Shown here: positions 29,130 to 31,956 of the stretch, piece by piece
How the letters are laid out: every line of letters begins with the position of its first letter
Position numbering within the stretch: position 1 is the stretch's first letter
From: Parachlorella kessleri
Taxonomy: Eukaryota; Chlorophyta; Trebouxiophyceae; Chlorellales; Chlorellaceae
Direction: 5' to 3'
Length of the DNA stretch: 49,939 bases
Assembly: GCA_001598975.1 (NCBI GenBank)
Contig: BBXU01000910.1
Span: forward strand, 1-49,939
Program-made: the position numbers and the translations under genes
The notes under the pieces: model-generated
Database searches by the model: none
Told to the model about the DNA's origin: nothing
The model's input: only the letters and a program-made list of their open reading frames with translations

Positions 29130-29941
29130 TTGAGACCTCCTTCCCCGTGCTGAAGCATCGTAGCATTTTCGAGTCTAGCAAGCAGGTATTCAGCTACGAA
29201 GGCAGATCATGGGGCCACGGTCCACACACTAGCCAATGCGTCGAAGACTAGCTTATGCGGCTGCGCGTTGCTTTTGCCTTGAGGCCAGAAGGAACTGGTG
29301 GGGAAGCTAAGTCGAAGGTTGGGCACAAAATTGCCGCTTGGAGGCTTTCAAAACTCAAATGTGCTTGGAATGGTGGTACAGGCTGAGAGGGGGCAGCTGG
29401 GAGGCTGGATCACCTGTGCATGTTCGCCTTGTGATATGTTGTTGTCCGCACCCTCATGCTGTGGTTTCAACAGGATGCAACAGACGGGCAGTAATGTAAG
29501 CCAGAGCGCCTCGGGTACGTTGACGTCACCAAGAGAGGGCCAGTGGTTGCCAAGAGCATCGCAAACAGGGCAACCGACCAGCTCTGCCGCAGAGCTGGGG
29601 GCGGCCCCCAGCCCCGACTGCTCCCTGCCACTCTGCACTTGTCACGATGAAGGGGCGCCTTCTAGCCACTGCGGTCTACAAGTTTCAAGAGGCGAGAGCT
29701 TCATGGCAAGCAGCGGAGCTTACAGATATGTTCTCCACAGCCCCACCTGCCAAACCTGGCAATGCTAGGAAAGGTGCAAGCCTGTGGTGTGAAGATCAAG
29801 CCCCTCAAGAGATACATTCATACCAAAATGTATATAAAGGCACCTCTAGTAGGATACGCAAGCATAGCCACCACAAAATGCAATGTCATCTACAGCCCAG
29901 TACACTCGCCACAATGCGTCCGTAGAAAAAGCGCTATACCA
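29130..29941. other. Upstream region of the phosphatase and 3' UTR of VTI1
   Basis: TTACA at 29720-29724 is a candidate end for the VTI1 transcript (3' UTR about 220 bases). The remaining 590 bases to the phosphatase ATG should hold its promoter and 5' UTR. A plus-strand frame at 29298-29768 has no family resemblance. Confidence 0.4.
29720..29724 (-). terminator. Candidate poly(A) signal, VTI1 long form
   Basis: TTACA on the plus strand, 220 bases beyond the stop of the membrane-anchored VTI1 exon. Confidence 0.4.
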
Positions 29942-31956
29942 TCAAGCGATCTTTGCCCACAGCACCAGCCCGATGCCACCCACAAGCAGCAGGATGATCC
30001 CCCACATGATAACCTTATGCTGGATGATGCGCCGTGACATGCTGGAGAGTATCTGGCGCGACTTGGAGATGTTGACGTCCACCCCTTGCAGCGTGTCGCG
30101 CGAGTGGAGGATTGTCTCCCGCTGTCGCTGCAGGTCTGAAAGGATCTGCACACCCAGCTCCTGCATGCAAGCAAGGGGCGAGGCCCGCAGTCAGGCTTGA
30201 CCATATCTGGATCACAGTAACAGACCAGGACATGAGCTGGCAGGTCAAAGCCTAGGCAGCCGACTACTGCCGGCTTACAAAACACTCCCACAAACACCCG
30301 GGCCACAAAGTTCACAGGCTGTGCTGCGCCTGTGCCCAGCCTCCTCCTTCGGAGGCCGTCGACATGCCCAGCTGTAATAGCTGCGGCAGCGAGGCCTGCA
30401 GACGCTGCTTTGGGAGAAAAGTAAGAATAAGCACATGCTGGGCATGCCTAGGCCTCCTATCACGCCCCCGGTTGCCGCAAGTTGCAAACCTAGATGGAAG
30501 GCACCCCTTCTGCACTTTTGCAGGGGATCATTGAACTGGCGGAGGGTTCCTGCGCCTGCCCACTGCCCGCTAGAACCGCCACCATTTGCCCATCTTTCTT
30601 AGCAAGCTGTCCGCCTGCCCAGCGCTGTCGCTAGTCTGCTGGGCCTGCTGCCGTGCACGCTGTATGACCTCACGTTGCCGCTGCAACTCTGCCAGGACAG
30701 CGTTTCCGGTTGCCTGGGCAGGGAAACGCCATGGAAGGCACACCAAGTCAGGCGGCCCCATATTACCCGAGAGTTTGCTGTGCTGGTGGATGCCGCAACA
30801 TCGCTTGATGACCATGCAGCCAAGTTGGTAAGGCTCCATGGCAGCCTTACGCATGTCACGGCCGATGGCTAGATAAAAACCCAGTCTCCAGACCTTGGCT
30901 ATAGCGTGCGACATGCTTCCCGTCATTGTAGCTGCTGCTGGTACTTGACCCGTACAGAGAACCCCCACACACAACCCCTACTGACTGACTGGAGGGAGGG
31001 CCTATACTCATACGTACCTGCCTAAACAAACACCACCTGCCTGCACTAACACAACCGTACGGAAGAGCGTCACTACTTGGACCGTGTTCCAGACATGACG
31101 CGCACCTCTGTTTCAAGTAGCTGCTGCCTGCCCTGCTGGATGCGGCTGCCAGTCTTTTCCAGGCGGTCCGTGGACTGGAGCAGCCGCTCCCTCTGCCCCG
31201 CCGATGTCTGATAGTAGTCGTCGCCCAGCCCCAGCTCGGCCCTGCAGTAGGGTGAGCACAAAATCCCAACGCTTGGAGCACAAAACTTGCCGCCTTCAAC
31301 AACGGGGTCTTGGGGCTTCACATGCTGGCCTCCACCATTACGACCTTCCTGTGTCGAACCCAGTGCGAGGATTGCAAGGTTTGCGCACCTTGTGTCTGCC
31401 CCTGACGCTGCTGCCTTCTTGGCATCTTCTCTGAGCTTAGCCAAATCCCCCTTGTACTCCTTCACCTTGGCAAGCATCTGCCGCGACTTGTCTGGGGAGA
31501 AGCTGCGTGCTTCCATGTCCATGCGCTGTAGCTGCATAATAACAAGGATAGCAACGAGGGATGAGTTCTCAAGCTTAAAAGTTCTTGCACCAGCACTCCC
31601 CCGCTCGTTCAGGATATGCTTTGTTTCTCAGTTTGGTCTCTTGGGACTCGGTAAGTACTCAAGCAGGCGGGGGTGCTTCTCCCGGCGGGGCTCCAGGTCA
31701 AAAAGCTCCAGCCGGGCCCTCCTTACCACTTGCTCTGCTTGCCGCACATCTGCCTCCAGTTCCCGGCCCTTGGCGCGTCTTTGCTCTGCATAGCCTTAAC
31801 TACCCCACTGTGAGCAGCCCAGGGAACGGGCCTAGGGGAGGCACTGATCACCAACTTGCCTGCTGTCAGCGCTGTCAGGCCCTGGATTTTGCGACTGATA
31901 TCCGTGGATTTGCTGCAGTACTCGTTCTCATACTGGGAGAAGAGCCCGTCGGCCAT
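29942..31956 (-). CDS. VTI1: VTI1-family Qb-SNARE
   Basis: Five exons keep frame and give 219 residues, the usual VTI1 length: 31956-31852, 31783-31727, 31531-31389, 31241-31106, 30160-29942. VTI1 proteins pair with other SNAREs to fuse vesicles in Golgi, endosome and vacuole traffic. The N-terminal three-helix part starts MADGLFSQYENEYC and contains LQRMDMEARS and KVKEYKGDLAKL. The linker region has QRERLLQSTDRLE and ends with LLETE. The last exon carries the SNARE motif (ELGVQILSDLQRQRETI, DTLQGVDVNISKS, MSRRIIQHK) and a C-terminal membrane anchor, about residues 198-215 (IMWGIILLLVGGIGLVLW). An alternative last exon lies inside the final intron and is described separately. The gene is head to head with MED20, 337 bases between start codons. 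Confidence 0.92.
30275..30279 (-). terminator. Candidate internal poly(A) signal after the alternative VTI1 exon
   Basis: TTACA on the plus strand lies between the alternative terminal exon (ending 30570) and the anchored exon (starting 30160). This is where a separate 3' end for the alternative transcript would be expected. Confidence 0.35.
30570..30713 (-). CDS. Alternative terminal exon of VTI1: SNARE-like motif without membrane anchor
   Basis: This segment lies in the intron before the anchored last exon of VTI1. It is preceded by an acceptor (tgcccag), begins in the same phase as that exon, and is open for 47 codons to a TAG stop. Aligned without gaps to the start of the anchored exon it shares G3, L7, L10, the block LQRQRE (10-15), I17, R21 and Q25, with similar heptad hydrophobic positions. 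It ends ADSLLRKMGKWWRF, with no transmembrane helix. Joined to the shared exons it would give a 194-residue soluble form. It is best read as a duplicated exon used as a mutually exclusive end; it could also be a decaying duplicate that is never spliced in. Transcript data would decide. Confidence 0.6.
   Translation of the reverse strand, partial: ATGNAVLAELQRQREVIQRARQQAQQTSDSAGQADSLLRKMGKWWRF

Follow-up and report, generated by a model that had tools for sequence, protein, structure and literature searches.

Can a SNARE that is regarded as always anchored in the membrane be made without its anchor through the choice of a last exon? This question is raised by the gene for the Qb-SNARE VTI1 in the green alga Parachlorella kessleri, located on contig BBXU01000910.1 of assembly GCA_001598975.1, the full 49,939 nucleotides of which are referred to here as the window. 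The minus strand of the window carries one VTI1 gene with four shared exons and two possible last exons, of which one codes for a transmembrane helix and the other does not. We propose, at a probability of roughly 55%, that the latter is a conserved alternative last exon that makes a peripheral, detachable form of this Qb-SNARE. If the conserved anchor-free ending is what it appears to be, an essential fusion machine would be regulated by exon choice.

Two last exons in one VTI1 gene

As judged from the translation and the splice sites, the shared part of the gene consists of exon 1 (31860-31956, with the start codon at 31956), exon 2 (31727-31785), exon 3 (31389-31531) and exon 4 (31106-31241), all on the minus strand. 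Exon 1 ends at a GC donor (CAG|GCAAGT, at 31858-31859), so that the first intron is of the GC-AG type. Exon 4, in which the SNARE motif and the Pfam domain V-SNARE_C begin, ends in ...LLETE in phase 0. The anchored last exon (29942-30160) adds SNARE layers −3 to +8, a transmembrane helix and a stop, and, when joined to the shared exons, yields an open protein of 217 amino acids. The alternative last exon (30570-30713) adds the same layers followed by the tail MGKWWRF and a stop, and yields an open protein of 192 amino acids. Both exons have an AG acceptor in phase 0, that of the alternative exon being pyrimidine-rich, and the pair shows what is expected of alternative last exons, namely homology, equal phase and a separate stop for each. 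The original prediction, which placed a second terminal exon with its own acceptor, the phase of the anchored exon, 47 open codons and a stop within the last VTI1 intron, is thus borne out. The reading frame of the alternative exon also runs open for 88 codons further upstream of the acceptor (30570-30977, a 135-codon stop-to-stop frame).

The pentamer TGTAA, a possible polyadenylation signal, occurs once after each VTI1 stop, at 30275-30279, where it had been predicted to lie ahead of the anchored exon, and at 29720-29724 after the anchored exon, with no other copy on that strand between 29300 and 32199. Because about 0.24 copies per 290 bp are expected by chance, this motif is weak support for an alternative 3' end.

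The anchored isoform is identical to the public P. kessleri protein P0002, including its end, save for exon 2, which is absent from P0002; this public model is probably mis-annotated, lacking both exon 2 and the alternative last exon. A genome search with the alternative isoform found this locus as the sole match among the best candidates scored, and a family search with V-SNARE_C recovered both VTI1 last exons along with matches on three other contigs.

SNARE identity of the alternative exon

Both Pfam domains of VTI1 are recognized in the alternative isoform, the N-terminal V-SNARE domain (PF05008) with 72.8 bits (cut-off 25.9) and the Qb SNARE motif (PF12352) with 43.5 bits (cut-off 27.1), and the alternative exon on its own matches V-SNARE_C with 29.9 bits (cut-off 27.1, E 6.9e-7). 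A Qbc-SNARE of the SNAP-25 type, with two SNARE motifs per chain, was considered and rejected, the alternative isoform having a single V-SNARE_C stretch. The anchored isoform possesses a C-terminal transmembrane helix; the translation of the alternative isoform, read by eye, has no long hydrophobic stretch and closes with KMGKWWRF, as had been predicted.

The two last exons appear to be duplicates. Their products align in a gap-free register with 13 of 47 residues identical, in agreement with the shared positions proposed originally, and this identity was equalled by only 3 of 200,000 shuffles of the alternative peptide. Over 44 codons, the two exons agree at 43, 50 and 32 percent of the first, second and third codon positions, which is no more than suggestive. 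A profile built from 10 other alternative endings, with the window excluded, ranked the alternative exon first (E 1.8e-17) and the anchored exon second (E 2.6e-15) out of the 1512 stop-to-stop segments that the window contains. The claim that an exon duplication gave rise to a competing anchor-free 3' end is well supported, this ending being conserved in other chlorophytes.

Anchor-free endings in other green algae

Relatives were sought with the alternative isoform (120 of 180 matches listed) and with a profile of the alternative endings (120 of 426 matches listed, where scoring was confined to the 7992 candidates with the most words in common), and the non-appearance of a species among the matches listed is uninformative. 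Among 180 listed proteins, 112 together with the window were counted as anchored and 12, chosen by eye, together with the window as anchor-free. The other 56 rows were left out as truncated, as reading into introns, as failing the search pattern or as duplicates, P0152 being a copy of P0108. The anchored set takes in P0161, whose sequence passes into an apparent intron and has no true anchor, and four proteins for which the last motif copy was used (P0005, P0030, P0053 and P0122). A search with residues 141-192 alone, under a strict word filter, returned two proteins among 4 candidates (P0013, E 3.0e-9; P0121, E 0.083), and a tblastn search for DNA of relatives in viral contigs (50 and 48 pattern stretches) found none.

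The anchor-free ending is present in annotated proteins of Nannochloris (P0003, ...KKMGRWWRF) and Volvox africanus (P0047, ...NRRTRWFF), as well as in six metagenome or SRA sequences (P0013, P0060, P0062, P0108, P0121 and P0143), one of which, P0060, is nearly equal to the Nannochloris protein in this part. The N-terminal part of the V. africanus form shares 142 of 151 residues with the anchored VTI1 of V. reticuliferus, and the alternative ending of Volvox therefore most likely belongs to the ordinary VTI1 gene. In five of the environmental sequences (P0060, P0062, P0108, P0121 and P0143), the exon ending in ...ETE is followed by an open, apparently intronic stretch and then by the alternative ending, in the same order as in the window. 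In P0013, a sequence of putative RNA origin, the shared part joins the alternative ending directly, as in a spliced complementary DNA (cDNA). The relatives seen as protein keep the alternative frame, although only open frames can be detected in protein data.

Two further annotated proteins, from Coccomyxa sp. Obi (P0151, ...SRWLPF) and Raphidocelis (P0160, ...RRAKWFFG), have the same type of ending, and an anchored VTI1 is annotated for each of these organisms as well (P0009 and P0133). The best match of their N-terminal parts to any compared anchored VTI1 is only 41/86 and 52/93, respectively, which suggests that these two proteins come from separate genes. All seven of the anchor-free proteins submitted to Pfam (P0003, P0013, P0047, P0142, P0151, P0155 and P0160) contain both VTI1 domains. 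The best match to the alternative isoform is encoded on a 3199-base contig (P0001, 85% identical) in which the shared exons are joined and the reading continues into the apparent last intron (ETEVS), as though an RNA had retained it.

A class apart from the anchored endings

Several lines of comparison separate the anchor-free endings from the anchored ones. Exon residue 35 is D, E, N or Q in all 11 anchor-free endings that include the window but not P0142 and P0155, as opposed to R or K in 113 of 113 anchored endings. The alternative exon of the window shares 24 of 43 residues with the alternative ending of Nannochloris, compared with 13 of 43 shared with the anchored exon of its own gene. 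With profiles that leave the window out, the alternative exon scores 63.2 bits in the alternative class against 28.0 in the anchored class, and the anchored exon scores 54.9 and 89.8 bits, respectively. In a tree computed from the first 43 residues of 78 rows (13 anchor-free endings and 65 anchored ones retained after thinning), 11 anchor-free endings are separated from the rest with supports of 97.4/85 in the Shimodaira-Hasegawa-like approximate likelihood ratio test (SH-aLRT) and the ultrafast bootstrap (UFBoot), and 10 of these, without P0151, with 98.7/88; the inner nodes are weak.

The tail is a further mark of this class. In 13 of 13 anchor-free endings, the stop falls within residues 46-50, and the membrane helix is replaced by a tail of 5-9 residues that contains 2-3 aromatic residues and one or more basic ones but none that is acidic. 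Numbered in a layer register that we take to be that of yeast Vti1p, all 13 also retain the zero-layer Q (exon residue 13), with L, M or similar residues at most layers, among them L or V at layer +7 and M or L at layer +8, and are variable from +3 to +6. By sequence, then, the anchor-free endings are a group distinct from their anchored counterparts and close with a short aromatic and basic tail (WWRF, WFF, WLPF).

The two remaining members of the set, a transcriptome entry (P0142) and P0155, end in RWFW and RWIW, after ARKAL or ARKVL, and residue 35, the profiles and the tree all place them with the anchored type. In P0161, which is related to P0155 (76 of 92 residues in the N-terminal part), the sequence enters an apparent intron just ahead of that tail. 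It thus seems that a similar tail evolved once more, and along a different path.

The conservation of the class, the stop and the tail argues against two explanations under which the alternative peptide would be of no consequence. The first is that of a poison exon, whose premature stop would trigger mRNA decay and lower the level of VTI1. Unproductive splicing is common, and the alternative stop sits upstream of a further exon, as this explanation demands; nevertheless, we consider it very unlikely given that all 13 endings agree in protein class, position of the stop and possession of an aromatic tail and that proteins with this ending are separately annotated in Raphidocelis and Coccomyxa, to which the TGTAA after the alternative stop adds little. 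Even more improbable is a decaying relic of the exon duplication with no present use. In favor of a relic, the identity of the duplicates is just 13/47 and the alternative exon of P. kessleri is known from DNA, but all 47 codons are open, and both the residue identities and the profile scores place the exon with the alternative endings of other algae rather than with its own neighbour.

A detachable Qb-SNARE or an inhibitor

We favor a model in which splicing to the distal exon gives the ordinary anchored VTI1, whereas splicing to the proximal exon would give a 192-residue VTI1 that retains the entire N-terminal domain and nearly all of the SNARE motif and has a short tryptophan and arginine tail instead of the membrane helix. 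Under this model, the proximal form is actually made and would be only peripheral on membranes, where partner SNAREs and tethers recruit it and its tail lies at the interface with the lipids. It could then join the usual endosomal and vacuolar Qa-Qb-Qc-R complexes as a detachable Qb subunit, and the choice of exon would determine how much VTI1 is anchored and how much detachable. The original prediction described this product as a soluble Qb-SNARE; the lack of a membrane helix stands, but the word "soluble" needs qualifying, since the conserved aromatic and basic character of the tail makes peripheral contact with membranes plausible.

The Qb-SNARE of the yeast vacuole reconstitutions is presumably Vti1. 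A soluble, anchorless Qb supports HOPS-dependent fusion in that system provided that R and Qa are anchored (PMC6994237, PMC8143792), so that the alternative isoform, too, could function as a Qb subunit that is able to detach and is kept in place by its partners, the tether and the tail. A conserved anchor-free ending would also provide a counterpart in nature to the soluble Qb made artificially for reconstitution work. A parallel to the tail is found in synaptobrevin-2, in which a tryptophan pair (W89/W90) soon after the SNARE motif lies at the membrane interface, where the membrane helix is needed to position it, and gates force; unlike in the alternative VTI1, which ends there, a membrane helix follows (PMC7815645).

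The original prediction instead favored an inhibitory SNARE, in which the anchor-free form takes the place of Qb in dead-end complexes and dampens endosome and vacuole fusion. This appears doubtful to us, but it is the most serious of the alternatives. Inhibitory SNAREs (i-SNAREs) and a soluble dominant-negative variant of SYP21 that blocks traffic have been described in plants (PMC3627133), and synaptobrevin without its membrane region did not support lipid mixing (PMC7815645). Moreover, layers +3 to +6 of the alternative exon in the window are weak. The Nannochloris and Volvox endings, however, retain L or I at layers +3 and +5, and the anchorless yeast Qb described above remains fusion-competent. 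By analogy with that system, a detachable form that supports fusion is no less likely than an inhibitory one, and a fusion-competent or modulatory role seems to us more probable than pure inhibition. A role outside membrane fusion, such as a nuclear or scaffolding function of the sort proposed for a truncated syntaxin 3, is unlikely, given that the SNARE motif and the zero-layer Q, in contrast to that truncated isoform, are retained here.

Several observations weigh against a detachable, functional Qb-SNARE. Layers +3 to +6 of the alternative exon in the window are A, T, A and A, P0013 has Q at +3 and P0108 has T at +5, residues that would favor impaired zippering. When synaptobrevin was deprived of its membrane region, its tryptophans became sequestered away from the membrane (PMC7815645), so that the alternative tail alone may not bind membranes. 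The public P. kessleri model has the anchored end alone, the alternative exon of this species being known from DNA, and both full exons are seen within one gene in the window only. P0013 and P0155 resemble spliced cDNA in sequence, their RNA origin being putative. Because no anchored protein of Nannochloris or V. africanus was identified among the matches listed, we infer rather than observe that their anchor-free proteins are splice forms. Finally, exclusivity may fail in some species: in proteins annotated for Chlamydomonas incerta (P0122), Picochlorum (P0053) and Trebouxia (P0030), a truncated alternative exon of ~23-26 residues is joined in frame to the anchored exon, and in Botryococcus (P0005) the two are likewise joined with an unrelated stretch in between. 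Such joins may be artefacts of prediction or real cassettes. In C. incerta, proteins with and without the truncated alternative exon (P0122 and P0137) appear under one locus name.

Beyond P. kessleri, we tentatively suggest, at somewhat less than even odds, that chlorophytes possess an old anchor-free class of VTI1, attained by exon choice in some lineages and as a separate gene in others and reached twice independently, whose tryptophan-rich tail would make it a reversible peripheral Qb-SNARE that tunes endosome and vacuole fusion. A clean comparison may be possible between P. kessleri, where this type of protein is a predicted splice form, and Raphidocelis and Coccomyxa, where it is annotated separately.

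Relation to known systems

The alternative isoform shares with VTI1, Vti1a and Vti1b, and VTI11-14 the N-terminal V-SNARE domain, the V-SNARE_C region and the zero-layer Q, and differs from them in an ending without a membrane helix. According to a review, a membrane domain is present in all Vti proteins (PMC9197314). Some peripheral Q-SNAREs, namely Vam7 and those of the SNAP-25 type, likewise function without a transmembrane helix, and the vacuolar Qc is so described (PMC8143792), although these belong to different subfamilies.

With respect to gene structure, there are two close parallels. Syntaxin 3 is a Qa-SNARE, and SNAP-25 has two SNARE motifs. In syntaxin 3A and 3B, the C-terminal half of the SNARE motif is swapped by splicing, as is proposed here for VTI1, but both forms have a membrane region, and the system is from animals. 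SNAP-25a and SNAP-25b arise from a duplicated, mutually exclusive exon 5 (PMC2581893), but these forms differ at 9 of 206 residues (PMC5552776), and the ending of the protein is not swapped. The splice swap of the SNARE half and the exon duplication are thus known already, whereas no VTI1 without an anchor appeared among the papers listed by literature searches on such a VTI1, on soluble SNAREs or on alternatively spliced SNAREs of algae, and the excerpts of PMC4028247, PMC3123573 and PMC12230059 contain nothing on it. Zebrafish vti1a is among ten transcripts reported to have a cryptic last exon (PMC7997972).
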